A stretch of 36,485 bases of DNA from an uncultured Clostridia bacterium (lineage in GTDB: Bacteria > Bacillota > Clostridia > UMGS1883), in assembly GCA_947630975.1 (NCBI GenBank), contig CANRJP010000018.1, positions 1 through 36,485 of the forward strand, in the 5' to 3' direction. This document shows positions 9,201-36,485 of this stretch, in pieces. A program made the position numbers and the translations under genes. The first letter of the stretch is position 1; each line of letters begins with the position of its first letter. The notes under the pieces were generated by a model. The model saw nothing but the letters and a program-made list of their open reading frames with translations, searched no databases and was not told the origin of the DNA.

Positions 9201-12200
9201 GGGGTTACGGCCGCCGGTGTCGAGACCGGCCAGACTCTGGATATGGCCTTGCTGAGCGGCACCTTCGTGGGCGTGGACGGAACTGCCGTTGACGGTAAGC
9301 TCGGCTGGATGCCTTATGGCGAAAGACAGCCCAATCAGGTAACCGTAAGACCCGATGTGGATTACACTTGGGTATTCCTGCCCACATCGGAAAACTACAG
9401 CAGCGTTACGGGAACCGCCAGAGTAAGCGTGACTCTCACCCGGGCGCCCAAGGACACCGTTGTTTACAACCTTCCCGGCGACGACGGCAACTACGCCTAT
9501 GTCAATATTGACGGCGAAAACCTGAAGGTCGGCGACGTTGTGGCCTTCTACAAATACAGTGTGAACGATCAGGGCGGTGTGACCGCCGCCGAACCCGACG
9601 ATCCCGTATGCCGCGAGGTACACATAACCCGCGATATGAACGGCAGGGTGAGAATAGCTCTCGATCCCGACGCGCTTGCCACCTCCGCCGGAGAAATATA
9701 TGTCCGCATCGAGGGCTCCACAAAGTGGGAGACCGTAAAGTATAAAAATGAGGTGGACTTCAGCGTCGACCCCGCCGAGATCACCGTCAAGCCTCAGGAA
9801 ACGACCGACGTGAAGCTGATAAGATCCGATAGCGAATACGAGATAGTCAGCTCGAAATGGATAGTTGACGAGGATTGTGTTTCCGTTGAGGGAAGCGGCG
9901 AAAGCGCCGTTGTCTCCGGCCTTGACTCCGGTCGGGCGACCCTTACGGTCGAAACCGTGTTTAAGCATCCCGATCCCGATTCTCCCGAAAAGACCGTTAC
10001 CGTGACCCGTACCGCTCCCGTGACCGTCAGTGACCGGGCGCCTACCACCGTCACCGTCTCTCTGCCGGAGCAGACCTATGACGGCAAGGCCAAGGCGGTA
10101 AGCGTCGAGGCGAACCGAGAGGGAGAAATAACCGTTGAATACGCCCCCGAGGGCACCGAAAACTGGAGCAAAGAGCCTCCCGTCAATGCCGGCGCTTACC
10201 GTGTAAAGGCCACTATCGCTCCGAATTCCGATTATTTGGGACACTCCACCGAGGCCAAGCTTGTCATCAATCCCCTTGAGGTCACTCTTGACAAGGGCAC
10301 TCTCGCCGCCGCGAATAAAACCTACGACGGCGCCAATACCGTCTCGCTCAGCGGCGAGATAGCCATAACCAATAAGGTGGAGGGCGATACCGTTTCAATT
10401 GACGGCGAAAAGATCACGGCTCTGTTCGTCGATGTAAACGCCGGACAAAACAAGACGGTCAATGTCACCGTGCCCGCCTACTCCCTCACGGGAGACGGCA
10501 GCGGCAACTACTCGATGCCGAAGGCCGCCGCGTTTACCCTGACAGCCAATATCGATCCCATGCCCGTGACGGTTACTCCCGTTGGCATGACCAAGTTCTA
10601 CGGCGAGACAAAGACCTCCGCCGATGTGAGCTTCACCAACGACAAGAATGTTCCCAACGGTGAATTGAAGATAACCTTTGGCAGCGAGGGCTTCGCTCCC
10701 GGCGCGGCGGTAAAGGACGGGGCATATCCCTATACCCTTGACGCTACCGCCAACAGCAACTACTCCGTGACTCTGGACGGCGAGGTCAACCCGGGCGTTA
10801 CCGTCGAAAAGACGGTCCCCGTCAAGGTTCAGGCTTACGCCGACGGTATAAAGACCGAAGTCGCCCTGTCGCGGTCAAAGATATCCGGCCACTACAAAAA
10901 CCCATATACCGAGGATCATGTGGATGGTGAATTTACCTGGGCCGAGCCCGACAAGTCATACAGTGAAAAGGGCAATTATCAGGCCGCTTACGTGTTCACT
11001 CCCGTCGATGAGGTCAATTACGAAAAGGTGACGGGCGATACCGTGAGCATAATAGTGTCCGACAAGACACCCACCAACTTCAATAAGCTCACCGATGAAG
11101 ATATGAAGTTCGTCTATGACGGACGGCCCAAGCGGATAAGGTTCACCGCCGACAGAGACGGTGAGATAACCGTAAAATACGCCCCCGTCGGCACTGAGGA
11201 CTGGGTCGCCGACGAGCCCGTCGATGCCGGTGCTTACAGTGTGCGGGCCTATATCGCGGCCACCGACGAGTTCGCGTCCGGCCTTGTGTTCACCACCCTC
11301 AACATTCTTCCGTTGGCCGTTGAACCCGATTACAGCGGCATAGCCGTTGCGCCCAAGACCTATGACGGCACGGCGGACGCTCTGCTCGGAGGCTCCGTTG
11401 CCGTGGGCAACCTTGTGGAGGGCGATGAGGTAAACATTCCCGCCTCCGCCGTGACAGCGGTTTATGAAAATGCCGCCGCCGGTACGGCCAAGAATGTTAC
11501 CGTTACCGTCGCCGCCGATTCTCTCACCGGCAGGGACGCCGCCAACTACACTCTGGCCGCCCACACCCATCATGTCGAAGGCGAGATAAACAGAAGAACG
11601 GTTAATTTGACCGCTTCCGCCGAAAAGGAGTACGGTCAGACTCTGACCCTCACCGACGGCGACTTTGAGGTTTCCCCGGATACTCCGCTGGTCGCCGGTG
11701 AGACCAAGGCCGACATCAAGGCCGGGCTTTCCAGCGAAGGCGCGGCTGAAACCGCCGCCGCCGGCAGCTATGCCATCACAGCCACCGCTTTGGCCGGCTC
11801 GAATTACGAGATAGGCACGGTGACCGGTGAAGTGACGGTAACAAAGGCCACTCCCGCCAAGGTCAGCGTCAGCGCGGGCAACGGCCTTGCGGGCAACACC
11901 CTCGCCACCGTTGACACCCTTGCCGGTACCTTTGAAAATCCCAACAACCATGCCGCCGTGGAAGGCGCCCTTACATGGGCACGACCCGAAACGGTTCTCA
12001 GCGCGGGCGTTTATAACTACGAGTGGGTATTCACCCCCGGCGACACAGATAACTACAATTCTCCCGTTACCGGACTTGTCTCTGTAACGGCCGGCAATAA
12101 GACTCCCGCCGCTCTGAAAATAACCGTGCCGGAAAGCCTTGTTTATGACGGCAAGGCCAAGACCGTCACCGCCGAAACCGACGCCAAGGCGGACGTGACT

Positions 12201-16061: not shown

Positions 16062-16940
16062 CTAAATCTGTTCCCATAGGAGCATATTGTTTTCAAATCG
16101 TGTGTTCAACTTGCCGGTATCCTTTAGCCATGCAAGATATGAGCGGACGGTGCTTCCGACCAAAACGTACTGCTCAAAATTCATTGTGAGAGAATAGCAG
16201 GTGAACAGCCGTTGCAGAATTGCCTCAAAGCAAAGCGGCTCTTTACAAAGTTCAATGATTTTCCCGGCGATCTCCCATACTTTTTCAATGTTGTACTGTG
16301 CCAATGAGGAAATATTGTCCGTTGCCTCCGCATGAGCCGGAATAAACATTTTGGCGTTCAGTGTCTTTACCGTTGCAAGTGTTTCCAGATAAGCGGCCAC
16401 ATCATATATAAATCCGATCCGGTATTTGTCCAGCGTTTGACGGCTCGATAGACAATCGGCGAGATAGACAACATTATCCGGTGTACGAAAACCCACCATG
16501 TCAAAGAAATGTCCCGGTAGATCGATGATCTCAAAGCCCTCCGGCAAGGTATCCTTTGTCAAACGGTCCGCATTACTCTCTTGCGCCAGTAAAAACTTGT
16601 GGCGCAGATCTTTGCACGGATAGCCGCCGTACAGGAAGGACGGCTCCAAAATGGGGTGCCTTGTGAAATCGCACTCTATCCCCGGCGCATAAATCTTACA
16701 TCCCGTTTGCCCCTGCAAATACCTGTTGCCGCCGATGTGGTCGGCGTTGGAATGAGTGTTGTATATAGCCGTCAGTTTCCAGTCGCTAGCGTCCAATATC
16801 TGTCGGATTTTTCGTCCCGCGTCTTTGTCGTTGCCGCTGTCGATCAGACAAACTTCTTTTTCATTCAGCTTTACAAGTCCTATTTTTGCGGGGCTTTGAA
16901 TATAATAGCTGCTGTCTGAAACCTGTATCAGTTCATACAT
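16062..16940 (-). CDS. MBL-fold metallo-hydrolase with HSNADH metal motif
   Basis: This 292-residue protein has the metallo-beta-lactamase fold pattern: LIDSGNDKDAG, then THSNADHIGG (where most relatives have HxHxDH), LPGHFFDMVGF, VVYLADCL and FIPAHAE, which supply the usual His and Asp metal ligands. The C-terminal 90 residues (EPLCFEAILQRLF...STVRSYLAWLKDTGKL) look like the small winged helix seen on many clostridial members. The long track ORF (start 17039) is rejected. ATG 16940 has AGGGGG 7 bp upstream, and the extra N-terminal codons look like a remnant of another gene. The substrate is unknown. Confidence 0.85.
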   Translation of the reverse strand: MYELIQVSDSSYYIQSPAKIGLVKLNEKEVCLIDSGNDKDAGRKIRQILDASDWKLTAIYNTHSNADHIGGNRYLQGQTGCKIYAPGIECDFTRHPILEPSFLYGGYPCKDLRHKFLLAQESNADRLTKDTLPEGFEIIDLPGHFFDMVGFRTPDNVVYLADCLSSRQTLDKYRIGFIYDVAAYLETLATVKTLNAKMFIPAHAEATDNISSLAQYNIEKVWEIAGKIIELCKEPLCFEAILQRLFTCYSLTMNFEQYVLVGSTVRSYLAWLKDTGKLNTRFENNMLLWEQI

Positions 16941-23288: not shown

Positions 23289-24812
23289 TTATTTTTTCTC
23301 CTCAAGATAACGCTTCGCGTCCTTAATAAAGCTCCATATCATGATTATCATGATAATGCCTATCGGGAAGGCGCTTATGATGCTTACGCTCTGGATGTTG
23401 CTCATGCTGCTCTCCGAGAACACCAACCCTATCGGCAGAACAATGAGCAGCAAGCACCACAGCAGGGTTATCATTGCGTGAGGCTTTTCATTTTGTCCCA
23501 GATTTTTATAACTGTAGCAGGCCGCCGTGTACGCTATGGAGTCAAAGGACGTGGCGTAAAAGGCTATCATACAAACCAGCGTCAGCACAAGAATGAGAGT
23601 GGAGCATGGCATGGTATTGATTATGTTCATGATAAGCCCGTACAGATCGCCGCTCGCCTCGTACTGGGCGATGAAGTCTGCCGCTCCCTTTGCCTGAAGA
23701 CCGAGGCTGTAGTTGCCGAGGATTATAAAGCTGACAATAGTCGAGCCCACGCCGAAAACGTAACCGCCGAGTATAGTCTGCTTTATCGTCCTGCCGCGGC
23801 TTATGTTGCCGATAAAGAAGGGCGCCGCTATGCACCATACCATCCAGTAAGCCCAGTAATATATGGTCCAATCCTGCGGGAAGCTGTTCGCCCTTACCGG
23901 ATCGGTATAGGTGGACAGCTCGAAGAAATTCTGGAACATTTTGCCCAGCGACTGGAAGCCGTTTTCAATGATAAATCGCCCCTGCCCGCCAATGACAAGA
24001 ACCAGAATGAGCAGGCCGAAGAAAAGATATATGCAGAGCTTGGCGAGGAAGCCTATGCCTTTAAAGCCGTGCATAACCGCGTATGTGTACACGGCGCAGG
24101 TTATGAGCAGAATAATTATTGTTACAGTCGTGCGGCTGATGCTCAAGCCGAAAAGCTGTAATATTATGCTCGCCATAAGCGGAGTCGCCACCGAAAAGGT
24201 GGTTGCCGTTCCGGCAAGGAGGGCAAACAGCGCGAAAAGGTCGATTACCCTGCCGACAATGCCGTCGGATTTTTTGCCCAGCACAGGACGGCAGGCCTCC
24301 GAGTAACGTTGGCGGCCGCGTTTCCGCACATGGAGCATGAAGCCGAAGGCCACCGCCAGCACCAGATAAAAGGCCCATGGGATAAAGCTCCAGTGGAACA
24401 GGGGGAATACTCCCGCCCACTCGGTAACGCTGCCCATATCGGCGATATGGGGGTTTGTGGCGTACATGACCCACTCGGAGAAGGAATAAAACAGTATGTC
24501 GGCGGCGAGGCCGCAGGTGAACATCATGCTGCCCCAGGTAAAGAATGAGTACCTCGGCTTTTCGCCCGGCTCACCGAGGACTATATTGCCGTACTTTGAA
24601 AAAGACAGGAACACCGAAATGAGCAGAACTCCCAGCCCTATTATCAGATAATACAGTCCCACCGTGTCCCCGAAGAAGAACCGAACCCTGCTTATGACCT
24701 CGTTGGATTTCACCGGGAAAATAAACAGCAGGACCGCCAATCCAACGATCAGAATAAACGGCGCTAAGGTTATCAGCCAGTCAACCCGGCTTTTTTGTTT
24801 TTTAGTATTCAT
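23289..24812 (-). CDS. BCCT-family transporter (choline/betaine/carnitine type)
   Basis: The 507-residue protein has the roughly 12 membrane segments and signature of BCCT carriers, which import quaternary-ammonium compounds: DWTIYYWAYWMVWCIAAPFFIGNISRGR is the family core around TM8 with the aromatic substrate box, preceded by FLSFSKYGNIVLG and WAGVFPLFHW motifs. A perfect GGAGGT stands 8 bp upstream of the ATG, and the gene overlaps the LicC-like gene by 11 bp. Its place at the end of a lic-type operon argues that it supplies choline for surface decoration, as LicB does in other bacteria although LicB belongs to a different family. Import of betaine for osmoprotection or metabolism is an alternative. 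Confidence 0.88.
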   Translation of the reverse strand: MNTKKQKSRVDWLITLAPFILIVGLAVLLFIFPVKSNEVISRVRFFFGDTVGLYYLIIGLGVLLISVFLSFSKYGNIVLGEPGEKPRYSFFTWGSMMFTCGLAADILFYSFSEWVMYATNPHIADMGSVTEWAGVFPLFHWSFIPWAFYLVLAVAFGFMLHVRKRGRQRYSEACRPVLGKKSDGIVGRVIDLFALFALLAGTATTFSVATPLMASIILQLFGLSISRTTVTIIILLITCAVYTYAVMHGFKGIGFLAKLCIYLFFGLLILVLVIGGQGRFIIENGFQSLGKMFQNFFELSTYTDPVRANSFPQDWTIYYWAYWMVWCIAAPFFIGNISRGRTIKQTILGGYVFGVGSTIVSFIILGNYSLGLQAKGAADFIAQYEASGDLYGLIMNIINTMPCSTLILVLTLVCMIAFYATSFDSIAYTAACYSYKNLGQNEKPHAMITLLWCLLLIVLPIGLVFSESSMSNIQSVSIISAFPIGIIMIIMIWSFIKDAKRYLEEKK

Positions 24813-25686
24813 CTTTGCTTACCTCCTGAATTTTTTTATCATTATATTTATATATAAATTTTTTACCGTTACATATGAACGTAAAGCCTACCGCCAAATT
24901 GTCCTTTCCCTTAATGGCGGCAATATTTTGCAGCTTTGACTCCTTTACGTTTAACCCCGACGCTACGGCTTTCAGTATCTTTGACCGGGTATCATCTATA
25001 TATGATGAGTCAAAGGCTCTAAGCTCGTCCAAGGTATCAAATTCAAAAATCGCTTCATCGGGATATTTTCGTATCCGCATCGGCAATTCGCGTATGTGGT
25101 CGATGTATATAGCTTCCCATAGCTTATCTTTTGTTTCCGGCAAAAAATATTCCTTCTCTAAAATTGACAAAAAATGCGAAGAAAATTCCTCGTTCCAGAA
25201 AACATGGCCCAGCATATACCAAACATTTTCACCGCCAATTTTAACCGAGCGGATATATCCGTCCGGCCCCTCCTCGATGCACCACTCGTTTGTCGCCCCA
25301 TGTGCGTACAGGGCGGAATAATACGCGCCGTCCACCTCAGGCTCAAAAGGGTTGATTGTGAAATAGTTGTCGCCGGAACAGATATATGTATTCCTTATGA
25401 CGTCTTTGGCCGCCCAAACACTCCCGTTATTGTTGCGGGTAAGATATTCCGTATTATGTATAAGCTTTACTCCGAACTTTTCCTTAAGATATGAGAACCT
25501 TTCCGCCTTATATCCGGTCACGACATATATTTCGTCTACTCCGGCCTCTCTAAGCTGTCTGATTTGCCTTTCGATGAGGGACTCGCCCCTTATCTCTATC
25601 AGGGCTTTGGGGTTTTCATATGACAGCGGCGCAAATCGGGCGGATGTTCCCGCAGCCATAATGACCGCGTTGTCAACCTTGCTCAT
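24802..25686 (-). CDS. licC: LicC-like CTP:phosphocholine cytidylyltransferase with vestigial kinase N-lobe
   Basis: LicC converts CTP and phosphocholine to CDP-choline. Residues 1-230 are a complete nucleotidyltransferase domain: IMAAGTSARFAPLSYENPKALIEI is the nucleotide-binding loop, YICSGDNYF carries the metal-binding Asp (D106), and GGENVWYMLGHVFW and ELPMRIRKYPD match the canonical LicC-type core. Residues about 236-294 (LKAVASGLNVKESKLQNIAAIKG...FTFICNGKKFIYK) align with the first 50 residues of the kinase domain in the neighbouring fusion protein, then stop. The catalytic loop and DWE motif of a kinase are missing. The gene overlaps both neighbours (14 and 11 bp). The start ATG has GGGAGGAG rather far upstream (13 bp), so translation is probably coupled. 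Confidence 0.82.
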   Translation of the reverse strand: MSKVDNAVIMAAGTSARFAPLSYENPKALIEIRGESLIERQIRQLREAGVDEIYVVTGYKAERFSYLKEKFGVKLIHNTEYLTRNNNGSVWAAKDVIRNTYICSGDNYFTINPFEPEVDGAYYSALYAHGATNEWCIEEGPDGYIRSVKIGGENVWYMLGHVFWNEEFSSHFLSILEKEYFLPETKDKLWEAIYIDHIRELPMRIRKYPDEAIFEFDTLDELRAFDSSYIDDTRSKILKAVASGLNVKESKLQNIAAIKGKDNLAVGFTFICNGKKFIYKYNDKKIQEVSKDEY

Positions 25687-27430
25687 TGAGTTTTTTCATC
25701 TCCTCCCGCGCATATCTGTAGTACTCTTTGGCGTAACGGTACTGCCGCAAGGAATATTCGCCAAACTCAACGCCGAGATTGCGCTTGTATTCGCACCAAT
25801 TGCTCCATAGTAAACCGCAAGCCGCTATATAACAATAGATTTTCACCTTTGTTTCCGACGGACAGTTTCCGTCAAAATAAATGGATATGAGCCTGTCCAC
25901 CTGACGTTTGTTGTACATTGAATAGATACAGAACATGGCAATGTCCATATGTGGGTCCTGCATACCGGCGTATTCCCAATCCGTAAGCTGTATTTCATCC
26001 CCGTCGAACAGGAAATTGTCCGGAACGGCGTCAATATGCGTCAACACTTTCTTACCGGCATGGGACTCAATGTACCCCCGAAGAGACAGAACCTTTTCCT
26101 TTGTCTGTTGGTGGTCCCTGTATATGGACGGAGTTCCGTTCCAAAGAGATTCGTAAAAATCTATCATCCCGAAAATATCAAACTCATGCTCAACCGAAAG
26201 TTCCATTTCGTGAAAACTCCTGAGCCTCTTCATGCAGCTCCTGATGTCAGTCACGTCAAGAGGATCGCACGTCCGAACATTTTCTATGTACTTGGTTATC
26301 TTATAGCCATTGGTTGGGTCGATATATACCGGGTCGTCACAAAGTCCCTTGCCGGATATGGTACGGTAAACCGCCGCTTCTTTTTGCCGGTCGATAAGCA
26401 TATCCGTTCCCTCTCCCGGAACGCGCATTATATACCGCTGTCCATAGCAAGAAAAAATGAACGAACGGTTAGTCATGCCCTTTTTCAGGACTTCAATATC
26501 CGTGATTTCCTTTGTGTCAACGCCAAGGACTTTTGCGATGACGTTCAAGGCGTCGGAATTAAGCTGAGACGAGCTGCTGTCCAGTTCGCGGAGCTGTTCA
26601 TAGGTGTTTATCTCCACCACATCGGCGGCACGGATCACCTTGGCGCAAACTATCATTTTACCTCTTTCATAGAGAGCCTCCTCCCAGAACGAATTATCAA
26701 AGCGGCTGTCGGAGCAGAGGGCTTCCACTCGTTCACGTACCTCATTCGCCTGCTCCTGAAGAAGGTATGCTATGCCGACCATGGAATTGCCCCCGACGCC
26801 GTGATTGACCGTAACCAGCTCAGACTTGCGGTTCACTCTTACGGAACTGTCATCGTCCACAAGATCGCTTACCATATACCACGAATACAGTTCCCGCGTA
26901 CTGAACGGGTTACTGTCACACCAAATGTCGCCGGGAATAATGTATGTGTTTGAGATATGTCCAACAGCCAGCTTTAAAGAGTGGAGATTATTTTTCGTTC
27001 CATAGTCCGGATTGACTATCAGTTCAACGCCATACTCATCGATCAGGTATTCAAACTGCTCCTTCATAAAGCCGACAACAACATATATTTCTCTTATGCC
27101 AACCTCGTGGAGTTGACGAATTGTCCGCTCAATAAGTGGTTCGCCGTTTACCTCCAACAGAGCTTTCGGCGCGGAGGTGTTGATAGGAGCCATCCTCATG
27201 CCGGCGCCGGCGGCAAGGATCACCGCGTTTTTTGGGGACTTGCTCCTGATTTCATTCTGCGCTTTTTCCGTTGGACGTATATCGTCGCTCAAGTATCCGT
27301 CTTTGATTAACGACTTGACGGATCGATTGACCGTTCCGAGAGAGTGACCGCAAAGCTCGGCCAATATGCGCTGATTTATATACGGCTCCAACATCAATGC
27401 GTTCAAGACATCGCATTCTTGTTTGTTCAT
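25673..27430 (-). CDS. Triple fusion: winged HTH + LicC-like cytidylyltransferase + LicA-like choline kinase
   Basis: The 585-residue protein joins three domains. Residues 1-60 form a winged HTH (NQRILAELCGHSLGTVNRSVKSLIKDGYL). Residues 67-290 form a nucleotidyltransferase (VILAAGAGMRMAPINTSAPKALLEV; YIIPGDIW with D168). Residues 293-585 form a choline/aminoglycoside-type kinase with the catalytic loop VLTHIDAVPDNFLF (H465, D467, N472) and LTDWEYAGMQDPHMDIAMF (metal Asp 484). It could both phosphorylate an amino-alcohol and activate it with CTP. The nucleotidyltransferase core differs from the canonical LicC core of the next gene and lacks its GGENVWYMLGHV stretch, so the substrate may differ. 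The track start (TTG 27496) is replaced by ATG 27430, which has a perfect AAAGGAGG 8 bp upstream. The HTH could allow choline-pathway feedback on transcription. Confidence 0.82.
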   Translation of the reverse strand: MNKQECDVLNALMLEPYINQRILAELCGHSLGTVNRSVKSLIKDGYLSDDIRPTEKAQNEIRSKSPKNAVILAAGAGMRMAPINTSAPKALLEVNGEPLIERTIRQLHEVGIREIYVVVGFMKEQFEYLIDEYGVELIVNPDYGTKNNLHSLKLAVGHISNTYIIPGDIWCDSNPFSTRELYSWYMVSDLVDDDSSVRVNRKSELVTVNHGVGGNSMVGIAYLLQEQANEVRERVEALCSDSRFDNSFWEEALYERGKMIVCAKVIRAADVVEINTYEQLRELDSSSSQLNSDALNVIAKVLGVDTKEITDIEVLKKGMTNRSFIFSCYGQRYIMRVPGEGTDMLIDRQKEAAVYRTISGKGLCDDPVYIDPTNGYKITKYIENVRTCDPLDVTDIRSCMKRLRSFHEMELSVEHEFDIFGMIDFYESLWNGTPSIYRDHQQTKEKVLSLRGYIESHAGKKVLTHIDAVPDNFLFDGDEIQLTDWEYAGMQDPHMDIAMFCIYSMYNKRQVDRLISIYFDGNCPSETKVKIYCYIAACGLLWSNWCEYKRNLGVEFGEYSLRQYRYAKEYYRYAREEMKKLNEQG

Positions 27431-27473
27431 GTACGTTTCCTCCTTTTGTTTTGTGAACATGGGGGCATTTTTC

Positions 27474-27489
27474 GGGGCCGGTTGGCCCC
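27474..27489 (-). other. GC-rich intercistronic hairpin
   Basis: GGGGCC and GGCCCC flank a 4-nt loop, just after the stop of the nucleotidyltransferase gene and before the fusion gene. No T-run follows, so it is more likely an mRNA stability or pausing element than a full terminator. Confidence 0.45.
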
Positions 27490-27492
27490 AAA

Positions 27493-28722
27493 TCAAAGTA
27501 TTTTGTATTTTTTCAGCAGTTCCGTCCGTCTGTGACTTATTTTCATACCCTCAAGGGCAAGATTTTTGTTTTCGCCTTTGCTGAGCCTGATGAACTTTAT
27601 CCAGCGCCCCACCCATACCTTCGGCAGTAGCCAAGGCTTGTCCTCGAGCTCCGGATGTTGGTTGAGCATCTGGGCCTTGTCGGGGAAGATAACATTGAAA
27701 AGGGCCTTTGCTCCGTTTGAATGTTTGGCCTTTCCTCTTGAAGAAAATGCCGCCCGTGTTAATTCGTGGGCCGAGCGCTGGGCCTCGGTACCGTTGCCGA
27801 AAGCTCCGTTACTCATCAGGTCGTCGAGCAGCTCATCCGGGCAGTTGGGCGGACAGAGAGACTCAAGCTTGAAGCCAAGATATGTATTACCAATGTAGAT
27901 CAAGTCGGACAAAAACAGTTCGGCCTCAAAATCTTTGGTCGTGGATTTTATGTAGTCCCAGTCAATTTCACCACCGTATTTTTCGGCATAGAGCAGTATA
28001 TCCAGTACTTGGCGGATACCGAAGCCCCCGGAAATAAGGTGCCGAAAAGCGTGAAACACCAAATAGAGAAAATGGTCGGTATGGTTCATTGTGCGAACCG
28101 GCACGCCGTCAGCGTCAAACTCACGGTAGTTGGCAAATACATCTTTGAAGCATTCGTTCATTCTGCTGCACAGGGGATTACCGTGTCCGGTGGGATTGAG
28201 GTGCAGTTCGATATACAGCCCATCCTCGCCGGAGCCATAGAAGCTAATCTCCTGAAGCTCATCTATTTGTCCCTTGGTTATGTCATCACGCTCGATTTTG
28301 TAGCCTTGTCTTTCGAGAATACCCTTGGCCTTTTCAAAGTCTTTCTTTTCTATCAGAATATCCTCGTCCCCCGATGGCCGGTGGTCGGCCAACTCGCCGT
28401 AAAGCTGACGGCAGACAAGCCCCTTCATCACAATAGGGTGTAAATCCTCCGCCAAAAACGCACGGTAAAGATTCAAAAATGCTTCCGTGTGCCGAGCCTG
28501 ACGCATTATCCACTGCATGGAGATGGTCATGTAGGTCTGATAATTGGGCGAATTAATGAAGTCATCATATTCCGACGCCGCCTCGAATATCAGCGGCAGG
28601 ACGTTGTGGTTTTTGGCGAGGGTGAATACGGCGGGCCAATTTATCGGCGGCAATGGTTTTGCGAACGAGTTATGTACAGATTTATTTAGCAAAGAAAGGA
28701 ATGCGCTTGCGTCACTATCCAT
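27493..28722 (-). CDS. NTP_transf_5-type nucleotidyltransferase-fold protein, candidate LicD-like transferase
   Basis: The 409-residue protein has an N-terminal helical region (WPAVFTLAKNHNVLPLIFEA) and then VMKGLVCRQLYG followed by HRPSGDEDILI (D119, D121), the pattern of the uncharacterised nucleotidyltransferase family NTP_transf_5 (motif K-G...R-x-x-x-D-x-D-x-L-V/I). The next part (FYLVFHAFRHLISGGFGIRQVLDILLY, near residue 225) is also typical. Such proteins are frequent in capsule and teichoic-acid clusters but their reaction is not established. No LicD (phosphocholine transferase) is present in this otherwise complete lic set, and LicD too has a nucleotidyltransferase-like fold, so this protein is the best local candidate for the transfer step; that is inference. 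CGAGGGAG precedes the ATG, 14 bp after the upstream gene. Confidence 0.72.
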   Translation of the reverse strand: MDSDASAFLSLLNKSVHNSFAKPLPPINWPAVFTLAKNHNVLPLIFEAASEYDDFINSPNYQTYMTISMQWIMRQARHTEAFLNLYRAFLAEDLHPIVMKGLVCRQLYGELADHRPSGDEDILIEKKDFEKAKGILERQGYKIERDDITKGQIDELQEISFYGSGEDGLYIELHLNPTGHGNPLCSRMNECFKDVFANYREFDADGVPVRTMNHTDHFLYLVFHAFRHLISGGFGIRQVLDILLYAEKYGGEIDWDYIKSTTKDFEAELFLSDLIYIGNTYLGFKLESLCPPNCPDELLDDLMSNGAFGNGTEAQRSAHELTRAAFSSRGKAKHSNGAKALFNVIFPDKAQMLNQHPELEDKPWLLPKVWVGRWIKFIRLSKGENKNLALEGMKISHRRTELLKKYKIL

Positions 28723-28736
28723 TTTACTCCCTCGTT

Positions 28737-29747
28737 TTATTCCGGAAAATTATAAATGTATTCCTTAAGGTTTTCTTCTATATATTGTATGTCCTTGGCG
28801 TATTGCGGATATTTCTTTTTGAGGTTTGTATTTTTAACAGATATGGCCGGGTCAAGATGTGATTTGGGAGACGTGTGGTCTTTAGGGTCTAAGCCCACAA
28901 ATTTAATTAGCTTTGCCGTAGTTTCATCGTATTTATAAATTAAATCTTCAAACCGGATCAGACGCACTCTGTCTTTATCGTATTCCTCTCTTTTGCGATG
29001 ACGGCGGGTTATTTCATACCACTTGCAAAAATCCTTAACGCTTTTATGCGGCGTTACTTTCCCGTGCCACACCTCATTTTCAAGGAGATATATGTCGCGG
29101 GGATCTCTTTCCACCACTACAACGCGAATATCGTCATCGAAATAATTTAAATATCCATTCAGATTTGACGGCGGCAGCAATTGATCGACCATGACATAAT
29201 CTGACTGTTTTTTGTTGAGGGTCTTCACAACATTTTTTATATAATTTTTTGTTAACCTATAAAATGTCTCTTTGTCTATGGCGGAAAAATATCCTTTTTC
29301 GTCAGTCAAGTTTAATAATGAAAAGCCTTCATTTTTGAACAATCCGTATCCGACTTTACTGATAATTGTGTCAATAAAATAAAATAAATGTCCCTTTTCT
29401 ATACGGTCATAATGCCACCATGAATTACATTGCAGTTCAGTTATGCTTTTTATATATTCATCGGTATACCGCATGAAATCGCCGTCCATATACCTTTTGT
29501 ATCCCTTCCTGATAAAACTGCCGTTGAGCTGCTTTGCGAATTTTATATATCTTTTTATAGCATTGCTGGTGTTGTGCCGATTATTATTTTCGATAAGGTT
29601 ATATTCCAAATCGCGTATACCGTCAGGATCATGAATAAATCTATATTCATATCCTCCCACAGAACTGCAGCTGCTAAATTCGGAAAACAAATCTGTGACC
29701 GCGCTGGATCCGGTGCCGTAATAACTGGCGCAAGTTATAATTCGCAT
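28737..29747 (-). CDS. Sulfotransferase-superfamily protein
   Basis: Sulfotransferases move sulfate from PAPS to sugars or other acceptors. In this 336-residue protein ASYYGTGSSAVTDLF (7-21) looks like the 5'-phosphosulfate-binding loop, and VVVVERDPRDIYLLE (209-223) matches the 3'-phosphate-binding strand-loop-helix with the conserved R-D-P-R-D pattern. A PAPS-type fold is therefore likely, although related P-loop kinases share these features. AAGGAGG starts right behind the flippase stop codon, 6 bp before the ATG. In this operon it would modify the repeat unit or the linked amino-alcohol. The acceptor cannot be predicted. Confidence 0.65.
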   Translation of the reverse strand: MRIITCASYYGTGSSAVTDLFSEFSSCSSVGGYEYRFIHDPDGIRDLEYNLIENNNRHNTSNAIKRYIKFAKQLNGSFIRKGYKRYMDGDFMRYTDEYIKSITELQCNSWWHYDRIEKGHLFYFIDTIISKVGYGLFKNEGFSLLNLTDEKGYFSAIDKETFYRLTKNYIKNVVKTLNKKQSDYVMVDQLLPPSNLNGYLNYFDDDIRVVVVERDPRDIYLLENEVWHGKVTPHKSVKDFCKWYEITRRHRKREEYDKDRVRLIRFEDLIYKYDETTAKLIKFVGLDPKDHTSPKSHLDPAISVKNTNLKKKYPQYAKDIQYIEENLKEYIYNFPE

Positions 29748-29762
29748 TAAACGACCTCCTTC

Positions 29763-31238
29763 TTAGGATTTGCGTATGGCCTTTATTTTTTCGATAAAAT
29801 AATTACGTTTAATAATCATTACAATGCAAATTGCCGCTATAATCGCATATCTTACGATGATCATGTCATAAACAAATACAACGCTCAAAGCGAACATTAC
29901 CAGCGCCGCAGAAATCAGTACAATGAATTTCATATCATACACTCTGACCCCGTCAGTCATTTTATTCAGCACCTTTATGTGGAATAAATAATGGCTTACG
30001 GAAAATAAAATATAGCAGAACAGCGTCGTGTATCCCGCGGCAATGTAGCCAAATATGGGTATGAAAATATAATTAAGAATAATATTTACAATCGCGCCAA
30101 ATACCGAGGCGATCATTATGAACTTATTTGCCTCGTAGTAGAACTCCACATTGCCAAACAATGTGTACAAAAAGGTAAAATACACAGATAGAGCCACCGG
30201 CGGAATTATCCAGCGTGCCTCATAATATGCGGGTGAGGCAAAAATGCGTATTATTTCCGGGCCAAAGCATATTATAATTACAAGCATACAGGCCCACATT
30301 AAAAGCAAAACATTTGCGTTTTTCCCTATATCCTTATATTTTTTATTTTTCATTGCCTTATACGAATATGGAATAAACGAGCTGTTTACGGCTGTGGTTA
30401 ACAAATTCATCATTTGGGATATATTATATGCGAGGCCGTATATGGCCGCCTGAGACAGGCCTACCATTTTTCCTATCATTATTCTGTCGGCCTGACCTAA
30501 AACCGACATCGACAAATAGTGCGGTATGAGCGGAATGTTGAACCAGAGGGCGTATTTCCAAAATGATTTTACGTAGAAGCTTTTGCCTTTGTAAAAATTC
30601 ACCGCGCAAAGGACAATACCTATACACACCTGAACACCAACATAAGACAGTACCCTCGCCTCGGCCTTGTGCGAGGAAATCAACACGGCTCCCACGCCAA
30701 TGACAGGGCTTAAGACAGACATTATCAAAGTAATCGCCACAAGCCCACGGTAACGGTAGTCAAACCGCTGGCGTGCGCTCCACAGTGAAAAGGCCGGTGA
30801 AAACATAAGTTCAACAAACATGGCGACAACAAGTAATGTCGGAAGTCCCAAAAGCTCATTGAAAAGTTTGTATCTAAGCAAGTAAATCGCAAACAAAATT
30901 GCGGTTACAGTCATCGACAGTCCGTTAAGCGCCGAAGTATATCTGTTCCGCTCATTTTCAAACTTTATCATGCCATTGTTGAAAACGCCGGCGGCTAAAT
31001 TGAGTGTGGCAAAAATATATATCAAGTTGTACCATGATTGGTAAATCGTGTATACACCATACTGCTCCGTGGTCAAAAGCCGGGTAAAAATGGGTATAGT
31101 GAGTATATTTATGCCTTTTTGCATGAAGTTGCAAAGAGCGAACCAAACTGAAGCCTTTACGGCGACAGGCATGGATATATAATGTTTATACATTTTTTTC
31201 ACAAAATTCACAAACGGCATTCCTTCCCGTAAATACAT
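29763..31238 (-). CDS. Wzx-like polysaccharide flippase (MATE/MOP superfamily)
   Basis: This protein of about 491 residues has 12-14 hydrophobic segments and the family start: SVWFALCNFMQKGINILTIPIFTRLLTTEQYGVY, the sequence at the N-terminus of O-antigen/teichuronic-acid type flippases. It would move lipid-linked repeat units across the membrane. The track start (TTG 31289) has no ribosome binding site, while ATG 31238 has AAAGGA about 7 bp upstream and is chosen. A 115-bp AT-rich gap separates it from the cytidylyltransferase gene upstream, the largest gap inside the operon. I see no convincing promoter or terminator in that gap. Confidence 0.86.
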   Translation of the reverse strand: MYLREGMPFVNFVKKMYKHYISMPVAVKASVWFALCNFMQKGINILTIPIFTRLLTTEQYGVYTIYQSWYNLIYIFATLNLAAGVFNNGMIKFENERNRYTSALNGLSMTVTAILFAIYLLRYKLFNELLGLPTLLVVAMFVELMFSPAFSLWSARQRFDYRYRGLVAITLIMSVLSPVIGVGAVLISSHKAEARVLSYVGVQVCIGIVLCAVNFYKGKSFYVKSFWKYALWFNIPLIPHYLSMSVLGQADRIMIGKMVGLSQAAIYGLAYNISQMMNLLTTAVNSSFIPYSYKAMKNKKYKDIGKNANVLLLMWACMLVIIICFGPEIIRIFASPAYYEARWIIPPVALSVYFTFLYTLFGNVEFYYEANKFIMIASVFGAIVNIILNYIFIPIFGYIAAGYTTLFCYILFSVSHYLFHIKVLNKMTDGVRVYDMKFIVLISAALVMFALSVVFVYDMIIVRYAIIAAICIVMIIKRNYFIEKIKAIRKS

Positions 31239-31353
31239 TGAAATATCCTTTGATATAAAATTCTCAAAATATACGTTTGTTAAAAACAAAAGTGCTATTC
31301 ATGTATTGGAACAAATCTAAAATTCATTAATTACTATTAACGAGTCAGTATCC

Positions 31354-32067
31354 TCAATCTGTATAATATTTTTTTATCCATTCCTTGGCGATATATAAAT
31401 CAATTTCCTTATGTATATCTATAGACTCGTCTATTTTAAACGGAATTATTTTATTGCCCATAAAGCCCCACGGTTGTTGACCTTCTTTGCCGGAAAGCAC
31501 AAACTCCGTATTCAGCACCCAAAAATTGTGAGAAAGGAACAGGCACTCCGGTAAATCCTGACGGTTGGTCGACACCTTGCCTGTTACGCCCTTTTCATAC
31601 ATTGCAAGGGTTCCGTCCGGCTTTAATGTCTTTGCCCTCAACGGATGATGATCGTTGTCCTCATACACCGGCACCACGGCGGTTACGGACATATCGTTTT
31701 TCATAATCTCAACACATTTTTCTATCCATTCCGCCTTTACTGTAACATTGTTGGCCAGAACCACGACCAAAATATCCGGCGCATTGCCTTCTTTCTTCAT
31801 AACGTCAAGAGCGTGAAGTATGCAGTCAATATGCTGTGCTGATGGCAGTGCCAGTTCAGCGGGACGGATAATAGATTTATATCCCAACTCAGCCGAAACA
31901 TTAAGAATATTTTCATCGTCGCTGCTGCAATAATAATTATCAATATTTTTAGCCTTTGCCGCAGCGTTCGCGGGGTAGTAGAGTACAGGCTTGCCCAAAA
32001 TATCAAGTATGTTTTTATCTTTTAGAGTATTGTTACCTCTGCCGGTCAGTAGCGCTGTAACTTTCAC
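31354..32067 (-). CDS. CMP-sugar synthetase-like cytidylyltransferase (NeuA/KdsB superfamily)
   Basis: This protein of about 237 residues has an altered NeuA-type nucleotide loop, VTALLTGRGNNTLKDKNILDILGKP (NeuA usually has PARGGSKGIPxKN), and further family features: YYCSSDDENILNVSAELG, RPAELALPSAQHIDCILHAL, VVVLANNVTVKAEWIEKCVE and a C-terminal IDESIDIHKEIDLYIAK segment (the conserved DI/D region). It should join CMP to an acidic sugar or related molecule. No neuB- or neuC-type biosynthesis gene is in the window. The start is GTG 32067, with AAAGGAGAG 7 bp upstream, not the track ATG 32097. It overlaps the DUF115 gene by 35 bp, which argues that the two work together. Confidence 0.8.
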   Translation of the reverse strand: MKVTALLTGRGNNTLKDKNILDILGKPVLYYPANAAAKAKNIDNYYCSSDDENILNVSAELGYKSIIRPAELALPSAQHIDCILHALDVMKKEGNAPDILVVVLANNVTVKAEWIEKCVEIMKNDMSVTAVVPVYEDNDHHPLRAKTLKPDGTLAMYEKGVTGKVSTNRQDLPECLFLSHNFWVLNTEFVLSGKEGQQPWGFMGNKIIPFKIDESIDIHKEIDLYIAKEWIKKYYTD

Positions 32068-32884
32068 GATATTTCTCTCCTTTAAATAATGTATCAAAAT
32101 CTACCCGTTCAAATACTTCAAGCTTGCCGCCGCGTGTGGCGTTATAAATTTTTATGCCGTGAGCGTCAGCGTACTGTCTGGCGGCTTCGTAGGCAAGTGT
32201 AGATTTATATAGTTGTGGAACATTGGTAATTCTATCATTCTCAGAAAAATGATCTTGTAAATTCTGTTTGGATAAAGAGCCATCCGGATTAAGTGTGACA
32301 GAATAATTGTGGTCAATCCCTAACAAATAAATAGATTTAAATCCCATATATGCCGCGATTTGTATAGCCATATAGGTCACAGTCCAACCGCCATAAAACA
32401 TTTCCGATATATCTTCAGAAAACAAAGGTAATTCAGGATAAAATTTTTTATTATTTATCTTTACATAGTGTGCATCTTTTATATATGGATACATCGTATA
32501 TTCAGATGATGCAATAAATTTTTCACTGTCAACTTTATAAGAAATATTGTTTTTTTGCTTCTTTATTAACTTATAATCTTGTGCACAATAATAGGTAGGA
32601 CGCCAATCTGTCTTATCGAATATTTCAAAAATACAATGTGAACCAAAACATATTTCTTTTTTTAATTTACTTAGATCTTCCAGTTTTAAACTTGGTCCAT
32701 TGCCTATAATAAAACAACGTTTCCCATAATGAGCATTTTTAAGAGTCGTTATATATTCATAACTTTGCTTCATCTTCTTTTCATGGGATGGTTTACAAAT
32801 CATTTTACATATGGGCGTATAAATCTTGTGGTAATAAAACCTATAGTAGGGACGAAACATATCTTTTATTTGATTTTTTATCAT
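32033..32884 (-). CDS. DUF115/GT42-like protein, candidate CMP-sugar transferase
   Basis: The 283-residue protein contains CFIIGNGPSLKLEDLSKLKKE near residue 57 and GGWTVTYMAIQIAAYMGFKSIYLLGIDHNY near 165. These match the GNGPSL and GIDxx motifs of DUF115 proteins and of GT42 sialyltransferases such as Campylobacter Cst-II, as I recall them. The N-terminal 45 residues are basic and may contact the membrane. It overlaps the cytidylyltransferase gene, consistent with an activate-and-transfer pair. Some DUF115 members are MptE-type pterin pyrophosphokinases, but the operon context favours glycosyl transfer. AGAGG lies 8 bp before the ATG. Confidence 0.68.
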   Translation of the reverse strand: MIKNQIKDMFRPYYRFYYHKIYTPICKMICKPSHEKKMKQSYEYITTLKNAHYGKRCFIIGNGPSLKLEDLSKLKKEICFGSHCIFEIFDKTDWRPTYYCAQDYKLIKKQKNNISYKVDSEKFIASSEYTMYPYIKDAHYVKINNKKFYPELPLFSEDISEMFYGGWTVTYMAIQIAAYMGFKSIYLLGIDHNYSVTLNPDGSLSKQNLQDHFSENDRITNVPQLYKSTLAYEAARQYADAHGIKIYNATRGGKLEVFERVDFDTLFKGEKYRESYSATDRQR

Positions 32885-32896
32885 TTTGCCAACCTC

Positions 32897-33931
32897 TCAA
32901 TTATATTTGATTTTAAATATTAATTTAAGGGGAAAATAAAAACCATGCAATGCAAAAAATAGAACAATGCGCTTATTTAAGGGGTACTTTTTCAAAAGGT
33001 TTTCTTCCTTTGATTGTCTATAAAAGCTTATATATTTTGCAAATATTTGTTTCATTCTTCTCTTCTTCGAATCTTTTTCCTCTGTGTTTTCTTTATGAAA
33101 AAAATCATATTTAAGATATAAAATAATGTCATTTAAACGATAGAATCCATGATAAATTTCATATTCGGGGTGCGTTTTCAACCATGGCGTTATGGCATTA
33201 ATATATGTATCAACTATCTCTTGAAAATCAGGTTTATATCGGTTCGTGATAGACGCCGGATTATAATAATAAAGATATATGGTCATTGGAATATAATTAA
33301 CGGAACTGATGTGCGAAAGGTATTTCAACATGAAAAGCATATCAGTACCTATTTTTACGCCTTCATCAAAGTACACCCCATAATCGTCAATAATCCTTTT
33401 GCGTACCAAAGTACCTACGGGTCCGCGATAGGAACAATATCCGTCTCCTTTGCAATACGCTTCACCCAAAAAACAGCTTTTTATCATAGAAGAACAATCA
33501 TTCAGCATAATTGGTTCATGCGCACTTTTATTCAATTCATCAATGCTATCAGAATCACTCAATTTATACGCATTAAACAATAACCATTCGGCCTTATCTT
33601 CCCAGTACTTTGAAATAATTTTATAAAATTGAGGCACCAATGCATCATCGGCATCAACAAATAGTATCCATTCGCCGGAACTATTCTTTATTCCGGTATT
33701 TCGAGCAGCACCCTCTCCACCGTTTTCGCGGTTTACAACCTTAATACACAAATATTTATTTCCGTATTCATCGCATATTTTTCCACTTCCATCTGTTGAT
33801 CCGTCGTTTACCAAAATCACTTCAGTTCTATCATCTATCTGATGAATAAAGCTTTCGATACATCTGCGAAGAAATTTTTCAGCGTTGTAAATAGGAACTA
33901 TGATGCTCAAACGAATTTTATCTTTACACAT
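32897..33931 (-). CDS. Family 2 glycosyltransferase
   Basis: Residues about 5-220 form a GT-A domain: LSIIVPIYNAEKFLRRCIESFIHQ (nucleotide-binding start), VILVNDGSTDGSGKICDEY, NGGEGAARNTGI and the metal-binding FVDADD. The C-terminal third is basic and hydrophobic and probably binds the membrane. It would add one sugar to the lipid-linked repeat unit on the cytoplasmic face. The track start (33982) is replaced by ATG 33931, with AAGGAG about 8 bp upstream, giving 344 residues. It follows the polymerase gene by 25 bp. Donor and acceptor are unknown. Confidence 0.9.
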   Translation of the reverse strand: MCKDKIRLSIIVPIYNAEKFLRRCIESFIHQIDDRTEVILVNDGSTDGSGKICDEYGNKYLCIKVVNRENGGEGAARNTGIKNSSGEWILFVDADDALVPQFYKIISKYWEDKAEWLLFNAYKLSDSDSIDELNKSAHEPIMLNDCSSMIKSCFLGEAYCKGDGYCSYRGPVGTLVRKRIIDDYGVYFDEGVKIGTDMLFMLKYLSHISSVNYIPMTIYLYYYNPASITNRYKPDFQEIVDTYINAITPWLKTHPEYEIYHGFYRLNDIILYLKYDFFHKENTEEKDSKKRRMKQIFAKYISFYRQSKEENLLKKYPLNKRIVLFFALHGFYFPLKLIFKIKYN

Positions 33932-33956
33932 ACATCTTTCTCCTTCCTTTAAAAAT

Positions 33957-35216
33957 TTAAATGATTTTTTTTGCATTAACACTGTATGTTAATGCAAATA
34001 TATGCATTGCATTCCAAAAGCATGAAAAATCAATGTCCGGGATACCAATAAACATCGCAACTATGGTTGAGATAAGAAAAAGCCCGCAAGATATATTATT
34101 TTGATTGCTCTTTTTTAAGCTCGAAAACAAAAGAGAGAAACTCATAAAAAACCACGGAATTGCTCCAAAAATACCAATTTGTGCCAACAGCGAAGGCAAA
34201 AATTGCGCACCTCGCACATTTTTATACCCAGCACCAAATTTAGGAAACAACTTAAACTGCTCTAACGCATTAATATCCCAATTTTGACGAGTGTGAAATG
34301 ACCCTGTTGAATCTTTTTCAAATATTACTTGATTAAGCACATCCATTAATCCACCAGAAAATAAGGCTAAAAAACAAGCAAGTAGAGCAATAGGGACAAG
34401 ATATTTTAACGCTTTTTTATCCTTGCTGACAAATAGATATATTACTCCTACTATAGCCAATGTCCCATATGCCGTGGATGAAAAAGTCAGGATTATTTCA
34501 ATTGCAAGGGCAATCGAAAGCAATATTTTTTGTCTGGTCAATTTACGGGAAATGACATAATAAAATGCCCCCACCAAAAACGCTCCGCAATAACTCGGTT
34601 CCATAAATGTTGAAAAGAGTCGTTTATATGCACTGTGATCCCAATAATATGCCGACCTGGTATCAGAAGTATAGATAAAAGTTGTCCATAAAAAATTTCT
34701 CGGTAAAATATTGATCGTGGTCAAAAATTGTAATGCACCTATCACGACAACAAATGTTATTGCCCTAATTATTATTTTTTCAAGCTCCTTTTTCTCGATT
34801 GTTTTTGCCAAAATCCAGCATGAAAAGTAGCAAAAAATATAAATAATAATCATAAGTAACCACAAAATAAACTGATTTTGACTTATGCTATAATTTTTTC
34901 TATTAATTAGATATGATATTACCATAGATATAATAAGAACCAAAGAAGCAGCCATAGATATATTTGGGGCTTTTATTTTAGAGAGATGAATTTTTCCAAA
35001 GCTTCCTGTACGCATTGAGAAAATGACAGTATAAAGCACCGCAACTCCTGAAGTTATAACCTGCGGGCCAATGCCATCATCGCCCAACATGATTACCGAG
35101 GCTGACTGAAAAACCATCGCCAGCAATATTGTGGAGATCATGTATTTGGGATTGTTGTTAAAAAATGAAAAAATTAAAACAGCAATCCATATAAATCCAA
35201 AAATCGTAATACTCAT
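33957..35216 (-). CDS. Wzy-like O-antigen/capsule polymerase
   Basis: The 419-residue protein is almost entirely hydrophobic with about 10-12 membrane segments and a large extracytoplasmic loop near residues 280-325 (QVIFEKDSTGSFHTRQNWDINALEQFKLFPKFGAGY), the usual place of Wzy active-site residues. Sequence conservation among Wzy proteins is low, so the call rests on topology, the LFSTFMEPSYCGAFLVGAF segment typical of Wzy/O-antigen ligase proteins, and neighbours. TTG 35228 overlaps the preceding stop codon without a proper ribosome binding site; ATG 35216 is preferred. It would polymerise repeat units delivered by the flippase. Confidence 0.8.
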   Translation of the reverse strand: MSITIFGFIWIAVLIFSFFNNNPKYMISTILLAMVFQSASVIMLGDDGIGPQVITSGVAVLYTVIFSMRTGSFGKIHLSKIKAPNISMAASLVLIISMVISYLINRKNYSISQNQFILWLLMIIIYIFCYFSCWILAKTIEKKELEKIIIRAITFVVVIGALQFLTTINILPRNFLWTTFIYTSDTRSAYYWDHSAYKRLFSTFMEPSYCGAFLVGAFYYVISRKLTRQKILLSIALAIEIILTFSSTAYGTLAIVGVIYLFVSKDKKALKYLVPIALLACFLALFSGGLMDVLNQVIFEKDSTGSFHTRQNWDINALEQFKLFPKFGAGYKNVRGAQFLPSLLAQIGIFGAIPWFFMSFSLLFSSLKKSNQNNISCGLFLISTIVAMFIGIPDIDFSCFWNAMHIFALTYSVNAKKII

Positions 35217-35224
35217 TATTTTTC

Positions 35225-36316
35225 TCAACCTTTTATTTCCATGTATATCTGCCTAAGCTTTTCACATTCACAACTTATGTCATATCCCTGTTTCTCTATT
35301 GTTTTGCATGATAAAGTCGAATTGCCTTTTCTGTCCATAATGGCAGAACATTTCATAATTTCCCTTGCCCAATATTCAGGTGATTGTTCTAAACTTATAT
35401 ATTCGATATTATCTGAAACTTTTGTCGCATCCGGCGCAGCTTCCGAAGCGTAACATGGCAAACCATTAGCCTGTGCCTCTATAAGTACCAAACCAAGTCC
35501 TTCCCATTTTGATGGAAAAACAAATACATCCATACCGCAATACATTCGTTCTATGTCATTCCAACAACCAGCAAAAATCACAAAATTTATTAAATCTTTA
35601 TCAATAACTTTTTCATAAATTTTTCCTTTCAGTTCGCCATCTCCCACCAAAAGTAACTTCGACTTAGAATTTAATTTGTGATATTCCTCAAAAATGTCTA
35701 ATAAAAACTCATGATTTTTCTGTTCAGCAAAATTTCCTATATGTCCAATAACGAATTCATCTCCAACGATTCCAAATTCCTTACGTACATTATCACGAGT
35801 ACAGCTGTTAAAATGAAACCGATCTACATCTATGGCATTATTTAAAACAATATAATTATCATTTTTATACAACCAATTTCCTGCTACATTAGAACAAGCG
35901 AGAAAATCCGTTGCCAAGAATTTCATTATTGGGCGCAAAACTGAATTTATAACAGGATATTTACATTCTGTGTTATGTGCATGAACAATTATTTTTTTTA
36001 CGTGATTTCTTCTTGCGACAAACGCCTCCAAAGCCATCGTACTGCTGTTGCCGTGAATATGTACGACATTATAATGTTCTTTTTTTATCAATCCGTTAAG
36101 GTTTGCGGTATATTTGAAAACATTTTTTTTGGGACCAATATTAAATATTCTTGATCTGTTACCTTCCAATTCTGCTCTATATTCATCACATATTTCATTC
36201 ACTACCGCAAAATCAATTTGTATCCCTTCTTTGTCCATTTGACGATAATAGTTCATTATAACCGATGTTATGCCATTAAGCCGAAAACGCACGGTATTTA
36301 TAATTAAGACCTTCAT
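35225..36316 (-). CDS. Family 4 (GT-B) glycosyltransferase
   Basis: The 363-residue protein begins with MKVLIINTVRFRLNGITSVIMNYY (GT-B N-terminal donor-side loop), has VVHIHGNSSTMALEAFVAR and VHAHNTE in the first domain, and GHIGNFAEQKNHEFLLD plus FPSKWEGLGLVLIEAQANGLP in the second. The latter is the E-x7-E motif of GT4 retaining transferases. GCGAGGTTGG lies about 8 bp before the ATG. It starts the completely visible part of the polysaccharide operon. Sugar specificity cannot be read from sequence. Confidence 0.92.
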   Translation of the reverse strand: MKVLIINTVRFRLNGITSVIMNYYRQMDKEGIQIDFAVVNEICDEYRAELEGNRSRIFNIGPKKNVFKYTANLNGLIKKEHYNVVHIHGNSSTMALEAFVARRNHVKKIIVHAHNTECKYPVINSVLRPIMKFLATDFLACSNVAGNWLYKNDNYIVLNNAIDVDRFHFNSCTRDNVRKEFGIVGDEFVIGHIGNFAEQKNHEFLLDIFEEYHKLNSKSKLLLVGDGELKGKIYEKVIDKDLINFVIFAGCWNDIERMYCGMDVFVFPSKWEGLGLVLIEAQANGLPCYASEAAPDATKVSDNIEYISLEQSPEYWAREIMKCSAIMDRKGNSTLSCKTIEKQGYDISCECEKLRQIYMEIKG

Positions 36317-36363
36317 GTAGCCAACCTCGCACCATTCATATTTTGCTTATCATTCACGCTTTA

Positions 36364-36483
36364 TCATTCAATACGACCGACGGCTATCCTATATCCCCCC
36401 CCCCGAATAATTTTCAGTTTAACAAGCATCAACTTTACGCACTGACGCATAAACCTTTTGGGAAGCATACGAACAACTAATTT
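36364..36483 (-). CDS. 3' end of an unidentified upstream gene (truncated by the window edge)
   Basis: One minus-strand frame is open from the window edge to a TGA at 36364-36366, while the other two frames stop within the first few codons of the window edge. The 39 visible residues are basic and hydrophobic (LPKRFMRQCVKLMLVKLKII) and contain three glycines encoded by a G10 tract. The stop lies 47 bp before the GT4 start codon, normal spacing for this operon. I do not recognise the family. Coding status is likely but not proven from so short a piece. Confidence 0.5.
   Translation of the reverse strand, partial: KLVVRMLPKRFMRQCVKLMLVKLKIIRGGGYRIAVGRIE
36395..36404. repeat. C10/G10 homopolymer tract at the operon's upstream end
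   Basis: Ten consecutive C on the plus strand (G on the coding strand) stand out in AT-rich surroundings. In the open frame they encode R-G-G-G-Y. Gain or loss of one G would bring a TAG stop within a few codons. Confidence 0.9.
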
Positions 36484-36485
36484 AT

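Follow-up and report, generated by a model that had tools for sequence, protein, structure and literature searches.

We think it fairly probable that the right-hand part of this contig holds a horizontally assembled capsule or exopolysaccharide operon that carries a choline cassette, with an enzyme in the cassette that regulates its own gene. The window, meaning the whole stretch of DNA analyzed (36,485 nucleotides), is the entire contig C18, part of a 2.9-Mb draft genome of an uncultured Clostridia bacterium. The cassette, a conserved one, sits at the 3' end of the operon; under the proposed mechanism, choline would be imported by a BCCT carrier, phosphorylated by a LicA kinase domain, and converted to CDP-choline by a separate cytidylyltransferase (LicC2), with or without a LicC domain that is fused to the kinase. 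Phosphocholine would then be placed on a surface glycan by a transferase encoded elsewhere, most likely a LicD acting in trans from contig C65. The fused enzyme (HTH-LicCA) starts with a winged helix, which is predicted to bind a 36-bp inverted repeat at the start of its own gene (and, in one relative, at a transporter gene), probably repressing transcription according to the level of choline, phosphocholine or CDP-choline. Judged from its sequence, HTH-LicCA is probably an autoregulating enzyme. An earlier note on this DNA missed this regulatory feature, which is the more interesting part.

From about 22 kb rightwards, the GC content of the window falls from about 56% to 33%, and a row of minus-strand genes runs from there to the end of the contig, with the operon reaching to within 170 bp of that end. 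Profile searches found all of the genes that the earlier note had named, in place and on the minus strand. The row opens with a leader (36338..36485, minus strand, as are all features that follow) that is 93-95% identical to C7:1-147. It contains a tract of ten Gs, unbroken here; the copy on contig C7 (L133) reads GGGTGGGGGG. Then come a GT4 glycosyltransferase (35225..36316, NCBIfam GT4 models), a weakly matched Wzy-type polymerase (33957..35228; PF04932, E 7.5e-6, below cut-off), a GT2 glycosyltransferase (32897..33982, from sequence and homology), an MptE/WaaZ-like protein (32033..32884; PF01973, E 4e-17, with a weak match to the WaaZ Kdo transferase), a PseF/NeuA-like CMP-sugar synthetase (31354..32097; PF02348, and TIGR03584 PseF at E 5e-17, below cut-off), and a Wzx-type flippase (29763..31289; PF01943, E 1e-19). 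The true start of the synthetase is probably near 32067. A strong PF01943 match, a PF04932 match below cut-off, and both glycosyltransferases are together in one operon, which fits the Wzx/Wzy type. The remaining genes encode a sulfotransferase-superfamily protein (28737..29747; PF13469 in relatives, and fold search), a PF14907 protein with a nucleotidyltransferase fold (27493..28722; E 1.2e-45), the HTH-LicC-LicA fusion (25673..27430), LicC2, a separate CTP:phosphocholine cytidylyltransferase (24802..25686), and a BCCT-family choline/betaine/carnitine carrier (23289..24812; PF02028, E 1.2e-121). No known RNA elements and no tRNA were found at the island. Elsewhere in the window, positions 6228-13502 encode a probable surface adhesin of 2424 amino acids, which has repeat domains of the YDG and MBG types.

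A sibling capsule operon on C7 has this leader at its front as well (95% identity over 139 bp), and contigs C7 and C18 break at the same base, the first base of that common leader. Because the sibling starts in this way, the operon probably begins with the GT4 gene and lacks little of its sequence. Given the common leader and two contigs broken at one base, several capsule operons probably exist in the genome, each behind a copy of this leader; these leaders are possibly switchable capsule promoters. No initiating sugar-phosphate transferase is found in the window operon; one is present on C65, and the place of the operon's own could be upstream of the shared leader.

A second CMP-sugar pair, on contig C86, is related to the one in the window (89% identical for the synthetase, 59% for its partner). 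The MptE-like gene thus has a CMP synthetase as its partner on C86, and it adjoins KdsB in L023; its product is a probable CMP-sugar-dependent transferase. The sulfotransferase-like protein itself falls just below the Pfam cut-off, while Sulfotransfer_3 (PF13469) is matched by 9 of 14 family members; its top fold-search matches, from a model of moderate confidence (pLDDT 65), are PAPS sulfotransferases. The idea that it is a phosphocholine transferase in disguise, recurring beside LicCA, was rejected: only 2 of 10 homologs in an unbiased draw lie beside LicCA, the closest homologs (57-60%) have no LicCA nearby, and the fold is that of sulfotransferases. The sulfate, acidic sugar and choline of the glycan are predictions, and we can only infer that it would be of mixed charge (choline and sulfate).

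The fusion protein begins later than its listed reading frame (25673-27496), which is too long. Homologs align from residue 23, the ATG at 27430, and since the predicted operator sits there as well, this ATG is most likely the start. The 585-amino acid protein that results matches PF13412, PF12804 and PF01633. Its winged helix is N-terminal, with Q20, R21, G32 and N35 invariant (51 homologs). The rest resembles LicC and LicA both by sequence and by predicted fold, with 1jyk (LicC, E 1e-27) and 4r77 (LicA, E 1.5e-30) as solved relatives. Where the earlier note spoke of a fused kinase and cytidylyltransferase, both domains are there, and the winged helix in front of them had been left out. The best solved match of LicC2 is the pneumococcal LicC (1jyk, E 9e-41). 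Its homology to the fusion reaches fusion residue 359, inside the kinase N-lobe; the tail of LicC2 is a remnant of that lobe.

The window kinase has the motifs of LicA, the Brenner motif HIDAVPDN and DWEY. In LicA numbering (PMC4364537), T29, D176, N181, D194, E196, Y197, W251, W254 and Y268 are kept in the window and in 49/49 relatives. E213, which contacts the quaternary amine in LicA, is Tyr in all 49 fusions.

The two LicC copies tell different stories. The positions W136, Y190, D107 and D218 are active-site positions in the LicC structure. Positions D105, R129, D192 and E216 are from PMC6697681. The window LicC2 keeps W136, D107, E216 and D218, with Ser replacing D105 and Leu replacing Y190. 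In separate LicC2 enzymes generally, the Trp is kept in 37/43, D107 in 43/43, and E216 and D218 in 39/43. In the fused C domains of two-LicC cassettes, by contrast, D105 is Pro in 42/49, W136 is missing in 42/49, and D218 is Asn in 41/49. A neighboring strand of the fused C domain carries an invariant Trp that may rebuild the choline box, and for this reason we call the pocket remodeled, not lost. Seven fused C domains have the old pocket, the same number as the divergent fusions that lack a separate LicC. On the tree, fused C domains from two-LicC cassettes make one group, on a long branch and with full support. Seven cassettes have no visible intact LicC2 next to them; a genome-wide check found a LicC2-type enzyme in every one of their genomes. 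All of this fits a division of labor in which LicC2 makes CDP-choline. One may go further, and suppose that in two-LicC cassettes the fused C domain became a ligand sensor while LicC2 does the chemistry, with trifunctional HTH-LicCA governing choline decoration of the cell surface, in gut Firmicutes and in one or more actinobacteria, through TGTTCA-N24-TGAACA at its own promoter or start codon. We hold this larger proposal to be a good deal less likely than the operon reading with which we began, and rather doubtful as a whole.

The regulatory part of the reading comes from the DNA before the fusion genes. Upstream of their starts, one common word stands out from otherwise unrelated sequence. 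In two-LicC cassettes, TGTTCACGAAAA at -29/-30 combines with a start codon in the context ATGAACA to give TGTTCA-N24/25-TGAACA. In the window, the predicted operator (TGTTCA-N24-TGAACA, 36 bp, 27424..27459, minus strand) lies at the start of the fusion gene, its second half-site within the start codon stretch ATGAACA; it is the sole exact match in the window, where 0.01 is expected. With up to two mismatches, the first element is found, mostly at -29/-30, in 43/44 cassette loci, against 61 of 889 control regions; as controls, the upstream regions of the remaining genes in these loci were used, with no fixed position required of a match.

The complete repeat is similarly concentrated. In 93 loci (1.43 Mb) it has 36 exact copies, 35 of them at HTH-LicC(A) starts; the one that remains is 19 bp before a BCCT gene, in one locus only. 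Allowing one mismatch gives 70 sites, 63 beside lic genes, and the other seven are about the number expected by chance. Of 68 loci that have a fusion start, 57 carry the repeat; near-duplicates among these loci keep the counts from being fully independent, and the homologs span 26 to 100% identity. Five loci from two phyla, taken later from named records, were used as a hold-out set, and gave three exact sites, one with one mismatch and one with two: exact in Lacticaseibacillus paracasei, exact with a second site in Collinsella aerofaciens, exact and with one mismatch in two contigs of a phage collection, and with two mismatches in [Eubacterium] eligens. The second codon, for Asn, is AAC rather than AAT by 36:4, whereas the rest of the genes favor AAT (843:508; p 1.5e-11). 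This bias against the preference of the genes means that the DNA is constrained here, not only the protein.

In L115 (3461-3548), two copies of the operator stand before a BCCT gene that is 6 kb away from the fusion and may be a second member of the regulon. The window has a single-mismatch copy at 16171-16207, and the fetched contigs of its own genome contain no exact copy besides 27424-27459.

What the repeat does could, of course, be read differently. It could be the stem of a hairpin in the mRNA by which the ribosome-binding site is masked, or it could belong to another, unrelated regulator. RNA from the cassette loci could pair through its half-sites, with the ribosome-binding site between them, and several variants keep G-U pairs. 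However, the stem would be only 6 bp long with a loop of 24 nt, and AGTTCA-type variants (seven loci) are uncompensated. In divergent fusions the repeat begins exactly where a TATAAT -10 box ends, and this overlap of the first half-site with the box puts it at or before the start of the transcript; it is also the position that would be expected of a repressor site. Further, the site follows the HTH-bearing fusions and one transporter gene. We therefore consider the alternative improbable, and prefer the repeat as the predicted operator of HTH-LicCA itself. No good promoter was seen before the window site, which may therefore act inside the operon, as an internal roadblock or at a weak promoter.

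A second doubt concerns the substrate. Given the replacement of E213 by Tyr in every fused kinase, and the remodeled pocket of the fused C domain, the sequences make it possible that a different amino alcohol (ethanolamine or a methylated one) is activated and that the glycan has no choline. Against this, all of the aromatic residues of the choline box are kept, LicC2 resembles LicC, the carrier is from a family that moves quaternary amines, and proteins with choline-binding repeats are encoded beside two cassettes. A substrate other than choline is accordingly unlikely. Those two proteins lie directly upstream of HTH-LicCA (L099:1345-3360 and L104:11129-12814), one with a CAP domain; the genome of the window has no Choline_bind_3 protein.

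With choline as the presumed substrate, where is it used? Across Firmicutes loci, an order recurs in which HTH-LicCA is joined by LicC2 and BCCT, or by LicA and an EamA/LicB-like carrier. In 27/43 cassette loci there are polysaccharide genes no more than 10 kb away, a raw count that has no random-locus baseline. The association seen in the earlier note is thus found in relatives too, where its absence would, by that note, have spoken against its reading. On the same terms, again with no random-locus baseline, LicD lies within 10 kb in 7/43 loci and teichoic-type polymerases in 5/43; LicD adjoins the cassette in several relatives. LicD and the sulfotransferase (4/43) never share a cassette locus, and the numbers are too small for this to have meaning. 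In 16/43 cassettes no labeled polysaccharide gene is within 10 kb, some of these being on short contigs.

The cassette has probably traveled. A homolog of the fusion is in 83 of 397 genomes of a single family, to which the Lachnospiraceae genome with locus L020 belongs, and in none of 27 other genomes of the window's own order. The fusion's relatives at 57-70% identity come from Lachnospiraceae, Streptococcus porci, Trichococcus and others, and the window BCCT is 79-90% identical to those of the same cassette elsewhere. In one genome of the Lachnospiraceae family, the BCCT is 90% identical while the fusion is only 63% identical; this, in turn, means that the cassette itself is mosaic.

The earlier note had it that LicD is absent. 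This holds for the window locus; genome-wide, there is one, at C65:484-1131, in a different exopolysaccharide cluster with its own initiating transferase. The possibility that the window operon continues on C65 was rejected, as the ends do not overlap and C65 is a separate cluster. The C65 LicD shares only 21-27% identity with the LicDs of LicCA loci, which makes its substrate uncertain, and 6 of 19 other fusion-bearing genomes lack a LicD match, so that transferases other than LicD may exist. In the same C65 cluster, L010:7265-9466 appears by eye to encode a Wzz-like membrane protein fused to an EAL-type c-di-GMP domain.

The obvious local substitute for LicD is the PF14907 protein, whose gene is directly upstream of the fusion and which might be the operon's own phosphocholine transferase, acting in cis. 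Its GD.D motif, of the nucleotidyltransferase type, was aligned to the DDD motif of LicD by hhalign, with only 4% probability. Yet the genome has seven copies of PF14907, two of which, 87-90% identical, belong to capsule loci that have no lic genes; none of the 43 other LicCA loci has one beside LicCA. It is a weak candidate, with little chance of being the transferase; the LicD of C65 remains the preferred one. The PF14907 genes are in two near-identical sets (C7/C18/C95 and C23/C77/C86/C163; L011-L016), spread over seven mostly capsule-like loci as if traded between them. One of these loci, on C77 (L014:5503-9657), has genes assigned by eye to an aminotransferase, a TagD-like cytidylyltransferase and a CDP-alcohol transferase, which may provide another route to a phospho-substituent.

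Least likely of all is that the CDP-choline feeds phosphatidylcholine rather than a glycan, as in the route published for Treponema denticola (review PMC7368946), for although the 16 cassettes without a labeled polysaccharide gene would suit it, the window operon has no phosphatidyltransferase and relatives' cassettes adjoin LicD, teichoic-type polymerases or choline-binding proteins.

When bacteria display phosphocholine on their surfaces, it mediates host mimicry, and antibodies are known to target it. If the operator prediction is true, the sensing and the activation of choline are joined in one protein, and genes for choline decoration can be recognized across genomes by a simple DNA word, making the trait predictable from sequence.

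How much of this is new is seen by comparison with known systems. The Lic-1 system of Haemophilus and Streptococcus (LicA, LicB, LicC, LicD) likewise imports choline and uses a homologous LicA kinase and a LicC cytidylyltransferase. Here, however, LicA is the last domain of a fusion, after a winged helix and LicC; there is a second LicC, BCCT replaces LicB, LicD is absent from the locus, and self-regulation is predicted. The earlier note read this as a rearrangement of lic parts; the fusion, the BCCT and the two LicCs are, in fact, the usual arrangement of a standing Firmicutes cassette, and the new point is the winged helix with its predicted operator. Nor is a CDP-choline module inside a Wzx/Wzy operon, a reading of the window that is supported, without precedent. 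The O18 antigen cluster of Proteus mirabilis has licABCD inside a Wzx/Wzy cluster (PMC8027243), although with separate enzymes, a LicB transporter, LicD beside wzx, and a Gram-negative O antigen as the product. Closer is plasmid pE1-2 of L. paracasei (NZ_CP110216), where HTH-LicCA, LicC2 and BCCT come in the same order in an exopolysaccharide cluster with flippase and polymerase, with an exact operator; it differs in its adjacent LicD and its rhamnose genes, and neither a sulfotransferase nor a CMP-sugar pair is annotated within 9 kb. The PntC cytidylyltransferases for AEP (PMC6697681) also use LicC-related nucleotidyl activation for surface tailoring, whereas the window operon has no phosphonate genes and its kinase is fused.

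For the regulator, no report of an HTH-LicC-LicA protein was found in the literature searched (subscription papers were outside its scope). The nearest parallel is trifunctional NadR of Enterobacterales, where HTH, nucleotidyltransferase and kinase make one protein that is both repressor and salvage enzyme (PMC12421817). HTH-LicCA has the same layout in one chain, and a conserved predicted operator at its own gene and, in one locus, at BCCT. It is not, however, a member of the NadR family: its domains are LicC and LicA, not NMN adenylyltransferase and ribosylnicotinamide kinase, its pathway is unrelated, its enzyme families are different, and its binding of DNA is a prediction.
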